IMG/VR virus record: IMGVR_UViG_3300008113_000417
Span: 1 to 42,263 of that record
From: a virus
Length of the DNA stretch: 42,263 bases
Reading direction: 5' to 3' (one strand)
Shown: positions 17,652-42,263 of the stretch, piece after piece
Position numbering within the stretch: the first letter of the stretch is position 1
Layout: every line of letters begins with the position of its first letter
Made by a program: the position numbers and the translations under genes
The notes under the pieces: generated by a model
What the model saw: only the letters and a program-made list of their open reading frames with translations
What the model was told of the DNA's origin: nothing
Databases searched by the model: none

Positions 17652-17737
17652 ATTCTCATAGGCAACAGGGGTCCAAACTCTGTGTAAGTCCTGTCCCTCC
17701 CATGCCTCTCATCGATGCACAAACAGGGAGGCCTCTT

Positions 17738-23698: not shown

Positions 23699-23833
23699 AA
23701 CTAAGTGGTGGAGTCAATATGACCCTATTAGGTTTCTTGCCATTCCTTCAAAAGGCAAGTGGTGCGGATGGGACTCTCTCCCGCCTGGTTTCCAATTTCC
23801 AGTCAAAGAATTGGTGGCGAGCCTGAGTCACAG

Positions 23834-23894: not shown

Positions 23895-24986
23895 ATGAGC
23901 GATTATAAAAAAACGGCACTTGTACTTGGTGCTGGTGGATTCATTGGAAGCCACATGGTAAAGCGTTTGAAAGCAGAGGGATATTGGGTTCGTGGTGTAG
24001 ATCTCAAATATCCTGAGTTTTCTATTTCAGAAGCAGATGAATTTATTCAAGGTGACTTGCGTGACATGAGTTTTGTTCGCCGTGTTCTTGAATTCAAAGG
24101 TGAGCAAGGTAATTTTTACGCCAGTGTTCCTTATCGCTGCATTCTTCCGTTCCACGAAATCTATCAGTTTGCTGCTGATATGGGTGGTGCAGGATTCGTC
24201 TTTACTGGCGAAAATGATGCAGATATCATGCATAACTCGTCACAAATTAACCTTAATGTTCTTGAGGCACAGCGCCAACTGAATGAAACATTTGATGGTG
24301 TTGATAATGGAACTGCATGTGTTCGACCTGTTTTAGAATATCAAACCAAAATTTTCTATTCTGGATCTGCCTGTATGTATCCAGAGCATAATCAACTTGA
24401 TCCAGACAATCCTGACTGCCGTGAAGAATCAGCATACCCAGCTAACCCAGATTCTGAGTATGGTTGGGAGAAGTTGTTCTCAGAGCGGTTGTTTCTCGCT
24501 TATTCTCGTAATTATGGGATCCCTGTTCGGGTTGCTAGGTATCATAATATCTTCGGACCTGAAGGAACCTGGGAAGGTGGAAGAGAGAAAGCACCTGCAG
24601 CAATCTGTCGTAAAGTAGCATATCTTCCAAAGGAAGGTGGTACAATTGATGTTTGGGGTGATGGAAAACAGACTCGTTCATTCCTCTACATTGATGAATG
24701 TATTGAAGCAACCCGCCGAATGATGGATTCTGACTTCCAAGGTCCAGTGAATATTGGTTCTGAGGAAATGGTAACTATCAATCAACTTGTAGATATTGCT
24801 GCTAAAGTTTCTGGTAAAACTGTAGAGAAGAATCATATTGATGGTCCTCTTGGTGTTCGTGGTCGTAATTCCAATAATGATCTTATCCGCGAAAAACTTG
24901 GTTGGGATTATTCTCAAACCTTAGAGGAAGGAATTCGTAAGACGTATTCTTGGATTAATGATCAGATCGAATCTACAAATAAGTGA
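23895..24986 (+). CDS. GDP-mannose 3,5-epimerase-like SDR enzyme
   Basis: 363 aa extended short-chain dehydrogenase/reductase. The NAD-binding GAGGFIG is at residues 12-18 and the catalytic YxxxK at Y189-K193, with SGSACMYPE before it. The match goes well beyond the general fold: HNIFGPEGTWEGGREKAPAA, VWGDGKQTRSFLYIDEC and GVRGRNSNNDLI are signature blocks of plant and bacterial GDP-mannose 3,5-epimerase, which makes GDP-L-galactose. It is the first gene behind the block's promoter and has more GC-rich codons than its neighbours. The product could feed a surface polysaccharide. Confidence 0.85.
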   Translation: MSDYKKTALVLGAGGFIGSHMVKRLKAEGYWVRGVDLKYPEFSISEADEFIQGDLRDMSFVRRVLEFKGEQGNFYASVPYRCILPFHEIYQFAADMGGAGFVFTGENDADIMHNSSQINLNVLEAQRQLNETFDGVDNGTACVRPVLEYQTKIFYSGSACMYPEHNQLDPDNPDCREESAYPANPDSEYGWEKLFSERLFLAYSRNYGIPVRVARYHNIFGPEGTWEGGREKAPAAICRKVAYLPKEGGTIDVWGDGKQTRSFLYIDECIEATRRMMDSDFQGPVNIGSEEMVTINQLVDIAAKVSGKTVEKNHIDGPLGVRGRNSNNDLIREKLGWDYSQTLEEGIRKTYSWINDQIESTNK

Positions 24987-39575: not shown

Positions 39576-39600
39576 AAAGCGCCCAAAAAGGCGCTTTTTT
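39576..39600 (+). terminator. Rho-independent terminator
   Basis: AAAGCGCC (39576-39583) and GGCGCTTT (39590-39597) with a T-run that flows into the next late promoter. Confidence 0.9.
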
Positions 39601-39608
39601 TATAAATA
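39601..39608 (+). promoter_or_regulatory. Late promoter TATAAATA
   Basis: Exact late octamer directly behind the terminator, 24 bases before the ATG at 39633. Confidence 0.8.
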
Positions 39609-39632: not shown

Positions 39633-40304
39633 ATGACCTTAGATCTTCATAACTTTTTTAAGTATTATGATGATGGTAATGCAAATCATGTAGCAGCAGT
39701 ACAGTGGTTAGAGGATAACCTTCCTGCTGAGTTTATGGATGACTCAGAGACTGAGTGGGTTTCAATTTTTAGAACTAAACCACCCACTCCAGAAGTTCTC
39801 GCAGTTCCATACTTCAATCAAGTAGACAACTACAGAGATGCACATAGGACTTGTAACTCTTCGTCATGTGCTATGTGTCTTGCTTTCCTCAAACCAGGAA
39901 GCATTAAAGGTGATGACGAATACGTTAAGAAAGTATTTGAGATTGGTGATACGACTGACCATGCGGTACAGACAAAGGTTCTGGCAGCTTATGGAGTTAA
40001 GTCACACTTTAGTTACAATCTTTCTTTTGCTGACATTGATAAGAGTCTTGATGCTGGGAAACCTGTTGTTATTGGTATCCTGCACAGGGGTTCTTTATCT
40101 GCACCTACTGGTGGGCACATGTGTGTTGTAATCGGAAAAACGCCAGACGGTAAAGGATACTATATCAATGATCCATATGGTTCACTCAATGATAACTATA
40201 CTGGTCCCGTGACAAATGGTAAGAAGACCATTTACACCAAGGCAGTTCTTAAGCACCGTTGGTGTCCAGGAGGCAATGATGGGTGGGGAAGAATTTTCGA
40301 TTAA
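39633..40304 (+). CDS. C39-like peptidase with shared N-terminal domain
   Basis: 223 aa. The first 40 residues (LDLHNFFKYYDDGNANHVAAVQWLEDNLP) match the first 40 of the lysozyme gene at 40403. The rest is papain-like of the C39 type: VPYFNQVDNYRDAHRTC, NSSSCAM (catalytic Cys), GGHMCVVIG (His) and YYINDPYG (Asp). It probably cleaves a peptide bond, in the cell wall or in a virion protein. The late promoter and the neighbour suggest a lysis or virion-entry role. Confidence 0.8.
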   Translation: MTLDLHNFFKYYDDGNANHVAAVQWLEDNLPAEFMDDSETEWVSIFRTKPPTPEVLAVPYFNQVDNYRDAHRTCNSSSCAMCLAFLKPGSIKGDDEYVKKVFEIGDTTDHAVQTKVLAAYGVKSHFSYNLSFADIDKSLDAGKPVVIGILHRGSLSAPTGGHMCVVIGKTPDGKGYYINDPYGSLNDNYTGPVTNGKKTIYTKAVLKHRWCPGGNDGWGRIFD

Positions 40305-40416
40305 TTTTAAGAGAAAGATCTTACAGAGAATTAAAGATCTTACCAATCATGGTAAGCATGTAGAAGCAAATCAACTTTATCTAAAGTATTTCGGAGGTAA
40401 CAATGGCAAGAATTGA
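40276..40416 (+). CDS. Small basic protein between two hydrolase genes
   Basis: 46 aa from ATG 40276 (or ATG 40279), with AGGAGG at 40268-40273. It overlaps the end of the peptidase gene by 29 bases and the start of the lysozyme gene by 14. The helix (INFKRKILQRIKDLTNHGKHVEANQLYLKYF) is amphipathic and basic. The good ribosome site and the double overlap support coding. Confidence 0.55.
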   Translation: MMGGEEFSINFKRKILQRIKDLTNHGKHVEANQLYLKYFGGNNGKN

Positions 40417-41098
40417 TTTACATAACTTTTTTAAATTTTATGATGAAAAGAATCCCAATCATGTTAAAGCAGTTCAATGGCTAGAGGATCATCTGCCAAA
40501 TAAGTTTCTTGAGGATAATGTAGACTGGGCTGAAATTTATCGCGGAAAAAAGTCTAGTGCTGTAGGAGCATCTACAATAAATTCTGCTTCTGCTCCTGCA
40601 GCATCTTCTTCACCTGCTACAGTAGGTGGTGATGATGTTCCAATGATGGGAATTAAATTAATCAAGGAATTTGAAGGATGTCATTTATCGGCATATCCTG
40701 ATCCTCTTACTGGTGGACTTCCAATTACAATTGGTTGGGGATCTACTAGAGATAAGAATGGACAACCATTCCAAATGGGTGATTCTATCACTCAAGCGGA
40801 AGCAGATGAACTTTTAATTACACAATGTAAAAATCAGTTCCTCCCTGCACTTCGTAAAATTCCACATTGGGGAGAAATGTCAGATGGAAAGAGGGGAGCT
40901 TTGCTCAGCTTTGCTTATAATCTTGGTGCCGGTTTTTACGGTGGTGATAACTTTAATACTATTACTAAACGCTTGAAGAATAAGGAGTGGGACTTAGTTC
41001 CCGATGCTCTTTATCTCTACCGCAATCCCGGTTCTAATGTTGAAGCAGGACTTGCTCGTAGAAGAAAGGCAGAAGGCGAAGCCTGGAAAAAAGGATAA
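40403..41098 (+). CDS. GH24 (T4-type) lysozyme with the shared N-terminal domain
   Basis: 231 aa behind GGAGGT. Residues 1-45 (RIDLHNFFKFYDEKNPNHVKAVQWLEDHLP) equal the N-terminal domain of the peptidase at 39633. A Ser/Ala-rich linker follows. The GH24 domain starts near residue 75 (LIKEFEG with the catalytic Glu, then PDP with Asp and ITIGWG with Thr), and RRRKAEGEAW is the usual end. It cleaves peptidoglycan. The shared domain may tether both enzymes to one place in the particle or the cell. Confidence 0.88.
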   Translation: MARIDLHNFFKFYDEKNPNHVKAVQWLEDHLPNKFLEDNVDWAEIYRGKKSSAVGASTINSASAPAASSSPATVGGDDVPMMGIKLIKEFEGCHLSAYPDPLTGGLPITIGWGSTRDKNGQPFQMGDSITQAEADELLITQCKNQFLPALRKIPHWGEMSDGKRGALLSFAYNLGAGFYGGDNFNTITKRLKNKEWDLVPDALYLYRNPGSNVEAGLARRRKAEGEAWKKG

Positions 41099-41101
41099 AT
41101 A
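41094..41101 (+). promoter_or_regulatory. Late promoter GATAAATA
   Basis: GATAAATA overlaps the lysozyme stop codon. The next gene begins 140 bases later, so the mRNA leader would be unusually long. Confidence 0.6.
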
Positions 41102-41154
41102 GTAACAATCATAACTGATTCTTGATCTTAAATGGTCTGAATCTACATACTCCG

Positions 41155-41236
41155 AGTCCTCTGTGACTTGGTGAATACTTTACTTTTAAACAACTTTAGT
41201 TTGTTTCGTTTAGTACACACTGAGCCATAGAGGACT
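41155..41236 (+). promoter_or_regulatory. Long leader hairpin that covers the ribosome site
   Basis: AGTCCTCTGTG (41155-41165) can pair with CATAGAGGACT (41226-41236), 11 bp with one G-T wobble, across a 60-base loop. The 3' arm contains the AGAGGA ribosome site of the ATG at 41241. Closing this helix would hide the site. Confidence 0.55.
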
Positions 41237-41240
41237 TTTT

Positions 41241-42263
41241 ATGTCTTACGCTAAAAAGGCGCTTGCTGTAGCGTCTGCTCTTTTAATGGGAGCACCAACT
41301 GCATTTGCAGATACAATTTCTGGTACAGATTTTGAGACTGGGAATACTTCAGGATGGAATACTGGAACTCAAACAGGAACATTAGATAGCACAATCACAG
41401 GACAAGGAACAGGTGTTAGTGTTGTCGATAATCCAGTGATCTTCAATGCACCTTCTCACCCAGCAGTAGGAAGTCCAACTCTACAAGATGGATCTCCCAA
41501 TCCTTATTATCAGCCAGCAGTAACCCCATCTACTTGGGAGTTTGGTCCTTATGGAACTGCTGGTGCTGCATTACAACCAAATGGTCAAGCAACATTTAAC
41601 CAAGCAACAGAAGCACTTGGTTTAACACCAGAAGAAAATCAAGCAATCAAAGACCTTCTTATTCAACAACAGCAAGCATCTGGACTAGGAAATCCAACTC
41701 CTACTGATGCTGCTTGGATTACAAAGTCAGTTACCTTGGAAACTGGTAAAGTTTATACAATGTCTTGGAACTACATTGGAACTGATTATGTTCCTTTCAA
41801 TGATGGTTCCATCACATCACTTGTTTATCAGGGAACAAGTTCATCTCCAACAGTAACAGTTAATAATCAACTTCAAAACTATGCATTACTTGGATTTACC
41901 AATCCAGGAACAGGTGACTATTCAACTGGAACTTATGGTTCTACTGGATGGCAGTATTCAACATATCAAGTAGGTGCTGATGGAGATTATCTCTTAGGAT
42001 TTGCAGTATTCAATCTTGGAGATACCGCACTATCACCAGTTCTTTTAGTTGATAGTCAGCCTGGAACTACAACACAGAATGGAGAACCATTTGCTGCTGT
42101 TGCTCCAAATAATCCAGATGCACCATCTGTTGATGAAGTAGCACCAACTCCAACTCCTGAACCAACACCAGAACCAGAACCTACTCCTGAACCTACACCT
42201 GAGCCCACACCAGAACCAACCCCTGAACCTACCCCTGAACCTACACCAGAACCAACCCCTGAA
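41241..42263 (+). CDS. Secreted protein with Pro-Thr-Pro-Glu repeats, 3' end missing
   Basis: 341 codons are open from ATG 41241 to the window end, so the gene continues outside. The signal peptide (SYAKKALAVASALLMGAPTAFA) ends in AFA-DT near residue 24. The mature part is Gly/Thr/Ser/Asn-rich with a beta-sandwich look: DFETGNTSGWNTG near the start, then LETGKVYTMSWNYIGTDY and YLLGFAVFNLGDTA. This resembles host secreted proteins with a sorting anchor. From about residue 302 a (P-T-P-E) linker begins, as in cell-wall or surface proteins. In a phage it could be a secreted or envelope-associated protein; the long leader with hidden ribosome site suggests controlled translation. Confidence 0.8.
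   Translation, partial: MSYAKKALAVASALLMGAPTAFADTISGTDFETGNTSGWNTGTQTGTLDSTITGQGTGVSVVDNPVIFNAPSHPAVGSPTLQDGSPNPYYQPAVTPSTWEFGPYGTAGAALQPNGQATFNQATEALGLTPEENQAIKDLLIQQQQASGLGNPTPTDAAWITKSVTLETGKVYTMSWNYIGTDYVPFNDGSITSLVYQGTSSSPTVTVNNQLQNYALLGFTNPGTGDYSTGTYGSTGWQYSTYQVGADGDYLLGFAVFNLGDTALSPVLLVDSQPGTTTQNGEPFAAVAPNNPDAPSVDEVAPTPTPEPTPEPEPTPEPTPEPTPEPTPEPTPEPTPEPTPE
42144..42263 (+). repeat. 12-base tandem repeat coding for Pro-Thr-Pro-Glu
   Basis: Codons CCA/CCT, ACA/ACC/ACT, CCA/CCT and GAA repeat to the window end with synonymous changes. The varied codons show that the repeat is selected at protein level. Its full length is unknown. Confidence 0.85.

Follow-up and report, generated by a model that had tools for sequence, protein, structure and literature searches.

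Classical (type Va) autotransporters such as NalP, EstA, EspP, Hbp and AIDA-I (PF03797) are built from a signal peptide, a passenger, a linker and a C-terminal barrel of 12 strands with an N-terminal helix and a terminal Phe. Ag43 is also an autotransporter. Accessory surface genes of this and other kinds are carried by phages: flu (Ag43) lies on the E. coli cryptic prophage CP4-44 (PMC6480617), and the lambda morons lom and bor affect surface traits of the lysogen (PMC3430580). For the LPS genes of cyanophages, a change of the surface that stops other phages has been suggested (PMC2984593). At the RNA level, the T4 genes e, soc, 49 and I-TevI have a leader helix over the SD and/or the AUG (PMC3014915).

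The window analysed here, a virus record of 42,263 bases, belongs to a T4-like freshwater cyanophage. Judged from sequence comparison and structure models, the gene at its end very likely encodes a type Va autotransporter on a moron-like cassette, with an exchangeable passenger, a late-promoter motif and a conserved leader hairpin, and with display presumably late in infection. As a phage-borne accessory surface gene it resembles lom, bor and Ag43. Those genes reside in (pro)phages of lysogens, however, whereas the cassette, with its swappable passengers, occurs in T4-like phages for which lysogeny is not known. Unlike the classical type Va autotransporters, it is encoded by a T4-like cyanophage, and a PTPE or Thr-rich linker replaces the usual long beta-helix stalk.

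The truncated gene and its barrel

The window phage is Kyanoviridae-like and infects cyanobacteria, hosts that possess an outer membrane. Genes for a DnaB-type helicase, a ribonucleotide reductase, a ferredoxin, a peroxiredoxin and a lysozyme were found, together with more than 20 tRNAs. Rfam gave a strong match to the wcaG RNA (RF01761, 97.8 bits) at 23728-23828, with a long gene cluster beginning at 23895, and a match to the abiF RNA (RF03085, 48 bits against a gathering score of 37) at 17696-17732, directly followed by the tRNA array. A C39-peptidase gene is located upstream of the lysozyme/autotransporter region, at 39633; before it, at 39576-39608, a strong two-way terminator is immediately followed by a late-promoter motif, TTTATAAATA. 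The features of the cassette are listed in Table 1.

Table 1. Coordinates of the cassette features in the window.
Feature	Position	Strand	Basis or remark
T4-type phage lysozyme, conserved left side of the cassette site	40403..41098	+	PF00959 E 2.1e-21; phrog_7 endolysin
ATAAATA, T4-type late promoter motif over the lysozyme stop codon	41095..41101	+	Motif counts, PMC2984593; leader transcript start presumed a few bases 3′
Small 5′ hairpin of the leader	41117..41143	+	Predicted in both main leader sequence classes
Long hairpin, 5′ arm (12 + 7 bp)	41154..41173	+	Fold z -5.1; covariation 0/500 shuffles (related leaders, not a probability)
Long hairpin, 3′ arm, with SD-like GAGGA at 41230-41234; T-run, then ATG	41218..41237	+	Fold, covariation
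Autotransporter gene, 5′ part, ATG start, 341 codons	41241..42263	+	ORF; near-identical relative L003/L165; barrel beyond the window end
Signal peptide (23 aa)	41241..41309	+	Sequence, relatives; common to cassettes with unrelated passengers
Passenger domain type A, about 268 aa	41310..42113	+	Alignment of A2 type; bacterial relatives
Pro-Thr-Pro-Glu linker, 12-bp tandem repeat	42144..42263	+	Linker 17 to 161 aa across relatives

The open reading frame (41241-42263, plus strand, ATG, 341 aa) has no stop, the window ending in mid-gene. On inspection, its N-terminus, MSYAKKALAVASALLMGAPTAFA followed by Asp, is a tripartite Sec signal, in which an n-region with Lys and a hydrophobic core precede the cleavage motif A-F-A (AFA/D), and it is retained in relatives. 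The original prediction of a Sec signal peptide is borne out by this, and the sequence also supports its view of an exported protein that is unusual for a phage. The PTPE linker that it had pointed out is present as well: the reading frame terminates in 40 residues of PTPE-type repeat, coded by a 12-base tandem repeat. A structure model of passenger A, with a pLDDT of 44, was too poor to reveal a fold. Comparison of the N-terminal part with phage records by tblastn gave no match, and PHROGs held no family for the autotransporter protein. Pfam matches to Trypan_PARP, LAGLIDADG_2 and others were dismissed as low-complexity or sub-threshold.

The 3′ half was examined in relatives. The closest relative, L003/L165, is 98.3% identical over 3,148 nt, reaching the window end, and contains the complete gene of 715 aa. 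Complete proteins from dozens of relatives, mostly of 650-800 aa, consist of a signal peptide, a passenger of about 268 aa, a linker and a barrel of ~260 aa with a final Phe, this residue being terminal in 18 of 18 aligned barrels. Since the barrel lies past the window end, it was assessed on L003. The AlphaFold2 model (pLDDT 88.9, pTM 0.84) has an N-terminal helix and about 12 strands. Its best structural match was NalP (1uyn; Foldseek E 2e-11; Z 29.8 over 253 residues at 2.0 Å), followed by EstA, EspP, Hbp and AIDA-I, all well above unrelated porins; the sequence identity of these autotransporters to the cyanophage barrel is 13-15%. PF03797 was found above cut-off in two relatives, L070 (E 3.9e-15) and L149 (E 5.8e-11), with no match for L003 or the other scanned relatives at the limits used. 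L003, below Pfam detection alone, is placed in the family through its fold and its relatives. Because the barrel fold matches that of translocators and two relatives pass PF03797, the protein is regarded as a type Va autotransporter. By these models and comparisons the window contains the 5′ half of such an autotransporter gene, an assignment that reaches the window phage via the 98.3%-identical relative.

Among viral contigs, 301 relatives of the barrel were found. When a full-length relative was compared with 50,697 phage records, only the Synechococcus phages DSL-LC02 (WJZ48311) and DSL-LC03 (WJZ47857) were found to carry the gene. As both are complete genomes assembled from metagenomes and stand against 301 relatives in viral contigs, the cassette appears to have been missed by isolate collections. 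The two phages have the same barrel (40-43% identity to L003) and the same hairpin-type leader, but differ from the window gene in carrying passenger B instead of A. The DSL-LC03 copy has been annotated automatically in the database as an autotransporter barrel protein, and the paper describing the two phages makes no mention of an autotransporter protein. In contigs of 84,980 species, a pattern search needing short conserved patterns gave no match to the barrel; at this sensitivity relatives in hosts may exist.

The cassette site and its passengers

Loci were fetched by lysozyme similarity, of which 76 were informative (4 further loci were cut and lie outside this number). The site behind the lysozyme was empty in 51 of the 76, held the autotransporter in 21 and another gene in 4. 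In empty sites the gene of a small membrane protein comes directly after the lysozyme, with the junction GGTTAACC and a short gap. Occupied sites have the junction GGATAAATAG, a T4-type late-promoter motif, and the membrane-protein gene known from empty sites follows the autotransporter wherever the contig extends far enough. The late-promoter motif was absent from the gap in 50 of the 51 empty sites; the exception, L108, has a longer gap carrying it. A second (C)TAAATA is present 3′ of the autotransporter stop, giving a late-promoter motif at each cassette end; at most of these 3′ junctions the motif was seen instead of a clear terminator. With its own promoter motif between otherwise adjacent genes, the cassette has a moron-like anatomy. 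In L095, L116, L122 and L135 a different gene (MIKMEINLVGNL... / MPINPLEG...) is located about 205-214 nt 3′ of the lysozyme, and in DSL-LC02 a sugar-transferase cluster lies in the region of the autotransporter gene.

The sequence NATAAATA has been described as the late promoter of cyanomyoviruses (PMC2984593), and a late sigma factor and an accessory protein are encoded by DSL-LC02. On the plus strand of the window, 9 of 14 ATAAATA motifs are intergenic, where 15% of the bases are found, with a binomial probability of about 3e-5 (uncorrected for the AT-richness of intergenic DNA). NTAAATA occupies the leader start position in 55 of 60 distinct leaders.

At least three unrelated passengers occur behind the common leader and signal peptide, starting with DTISGTDFE... 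(A), HTNSIGYVG... (B) and APLTLQGNYVKIG... (C). An A2 and a C cassette can share a leader with 100% identity over 105 nt, and a B and a C cassette a barrel with 97% identity. On the barrel tree at least nine changes of passenger are needed, whereas two would suffice without exchange; this is a quick tree with weakly supported branches included, and its starred branches by themselves require at least four per type. L215 was left out of the tree. In this cassette (L215:1894-2988, 365 aa) the passenger is almost wholly deleted in frame, and the signal peptide, a stalk remnant and the barrel remain.

Passengers A and B are related, at about 35% identity, to the N-termini of alphaproteobacterial autotransporter-type proteins (Novosphingobium, Ochrobactrum plasmids), and passenger A also forms part of a repeat protein encoded by an actinobacterial MAG. 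Unlike those alphaproteobacterial proteins with their long beta-strand-repeat passengers, the phage versions are much shorter and their passengers move between barrels. No passenger relatives were found in cyanobacteria within the searches made. The suggestion that the mature domain resembles secreted proteins of the host is thus correct as to its bacterial kinship, but the kin are other bacteria. A conserved His follows the predicted cleavage at the start of passenger B (HTNS.GYVG) in L002, L129, L139, L149, L161, L227 and L232; this residue, which is kept in the bacterial relatives, may form an N-terminal metal site.

The leader hairpin

The leader is 142 nt long. Its long stem comprises 12 bp (41154-41165 with 41226-41237), then 7 bp (41167-41173 with 41218-41224) and shorter distal helices; the SD-like GAGGA is located in the 3′ arm and the AUG in a predicted outer helix of 5 bp. 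Like the leaders of T4 genes e, soc, 49 and I-TevI, this is a predicted helix over the SD and/or AUG, in this case supported by covariation. For the leader together with 40 coding nt, the folding energy is -55 kcal/mol, compared with -34.4±4.1 kcal/mol for shuffles (z -5.1, 0 of 200). Among 39 genes of the window its leader energy is the lowest, but narrowly (-44.5 versus -42.8 for the next, mean -26.8). The stability is unexceptional and conservation, not stability, was therefore taken as evidence.

In 35 distinct class-1 leaders the pairing was retained in 97.3% of pair cells, and slid controls were 28-48% paired. Changes on both sides were observed in 5 pairs (21 cells), which none of 500 shuffles reached, a figure that is not a probability because the class-1 sequences are related. 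Lack of conservation, which was to speak against the helix, was not seen; the helix, as foreseen, pairs the ribosome site, and it is conserved, although it measures 12 + 7 bp rather than 11 bp. Nearly every leader carries the late-promoter motif, the small hairpin and the long hairpin finishing a few bases before the AUG. The long hairpin also occurs in other letters, with the alternative arms ACGGTGGTTG/CAACCACCGT, AAGGTGAGTTG/CAACTCACCTT, CAGTGAGTTG/CGACTCACTG, GATTCCGTGACTTG/CAAGTCACGGAAT and GGTGCTTCGGT/ATCGAAGCAC. A covariance model was run over 263 kb of related phages, of which 100 kb came from DSL-LC02 and part from five empty-site loci; it matched only before autotransporter genes. 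L242:3065-3223 is the only complete cassette seen without the hairpin, and has the TAAATA motif. The 3′ arm carries no SD in several leaders (L039, L048, L077, L078, L232 and L238). Masking of an SD is therefore not itself the conserved feature; what persists is the long helix beside the AUG.

The hairpin probably keeps translation low until the leader is unwound or undergoes processing, for example by RNase III. A possible but less probable explanation is that it serves chiefly as an intrinsic terminator or attenuator for transcription that enters from the lysozyme gene, its overlap with the ribosome site being incidental. The long stem followed by a T-rich stretch and the leaders without SD fit this explanation, but the hairpin lies downstream of the late-promoter motif of the cassette, so that a strong terminator would silence the gene. 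Moreover, the T-run is imperfect in several leaders, and the conventional terminator at 39576-39597 precedes its own promoter motif rather than following it. Control as in T4 gene e, by which early read-through transcripts would be masked and late ones, starting between the arms, would be open, is unlikely. In its favour, the leader helix over SD and AUG is of the gene e kind (PMC3014915) and belongs to a T4-like phage; yet there is no ATAAATA between the arms, the motif in the window preceding the 5′ arm by about 55 nt. Because this late promoter lies upstream of both arms, late transcripts would retain the hairpin, unlike those of gene e, and the 5′ arm is not removed. An RNA thermometer or riboswitch would also have SD and AUG paired, but is very improbable. 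The computed SD bases stay less than 0.3% unpaired up to 60°C, contrary to the temperature-dependent translation once proposed; Rfam has no family at the leader position, and the several arm versions argue against a single conserved ligand pocket.

Possible role in the infected cell

Translational restraint by the hairpin would be relieved by RNase III-type processing or unwinding, and the autotransporter would be made late in infection. Export would then proceed through the Sec system of the host, the BAM complex of the host would insert the barrel into the outer membrane, and the passenger would be displayed on the exterior of the infected cell, where it most likely alters who binds the cell, for instance by masking receptors from competing phages. 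Protein family and promoter motif together make it probable that these viruses decorate the surface of the infected cell just before it bursts.

Surface remodelling of the infected cell as the function is given about an even chance, and a role in lysis is its main rival. The sugar-transferase cluster in the gene region of DSL-LC02 is in line with surface remodelling. As a lysis accessory, the barrel protein would form a lysis block together with the C39 peptidase, the lysozyme and the small membrane protein and help to breach the outer membrane instead of displaying a passenger. The position of the gene between lysozyme and small membrane protein, downstream of the C39-peptidase gene, and its late-promoter motif are in line with such a role. 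It is nevertheless rather improbable, since the gene is absent in the 51 of 76 informative relatives with an empty site behind the same lysozyme and since the passengers, repeatedly exchanged, resemble autotransporter cap domains and not lytic ones. That the protein is a host-like exoprotein, anchored to the surface by PEP-CTERM or to the wall, can be practically dismissed. Its PTPE linker and a weak match to the PEP-CTERM family NF038132 would suit this, but the match scored 26 bits against a curated cut-off of 90 and was rejected; no PEP-CTERM end was found when the C-terminal PEP motif was sought in complete relatives. All inspected complete relatives with an intact 3′ end finish in the Phe-terminated barrel. 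The missing end, which was to be inspected for a sorting signal, is thus an outer-membrane barrel without one in the complete relatives, and the description of the linker as wall-type does not hold.

With surface remodelling as the preferred reading, a wider proposal can be put forward tentatively, at somewhat less than even confidence: an interchangeable surface-display system. A conserved module (late promoter, translation-gating hairpin, signal peptide, barrel) would be combined with passengers from the bacterial adhesin/autotransporter pool, swapped by recombination at the leader/signal peptide and at the barrel. The infected cell would be re-coated before lysis, which would decide which competitors, grazers and neighbours bind.

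A full-text literature search, in which few subscription papers were covered, returned no description of classical autotransporters in cyanophages. Save for one database annotation, the recurrence of a complete classical autotransporter gene in T4-like cyanophages appears to be undescribed. The leader hairpin is a compact example of an RNA structure retained through turnover of its sequence. Because its passengers can be swapped, the purpose of the autotransporter can be tested, and these phages apparently spend late-infection effort on remodelling the exterior of a cell that is about to burst.
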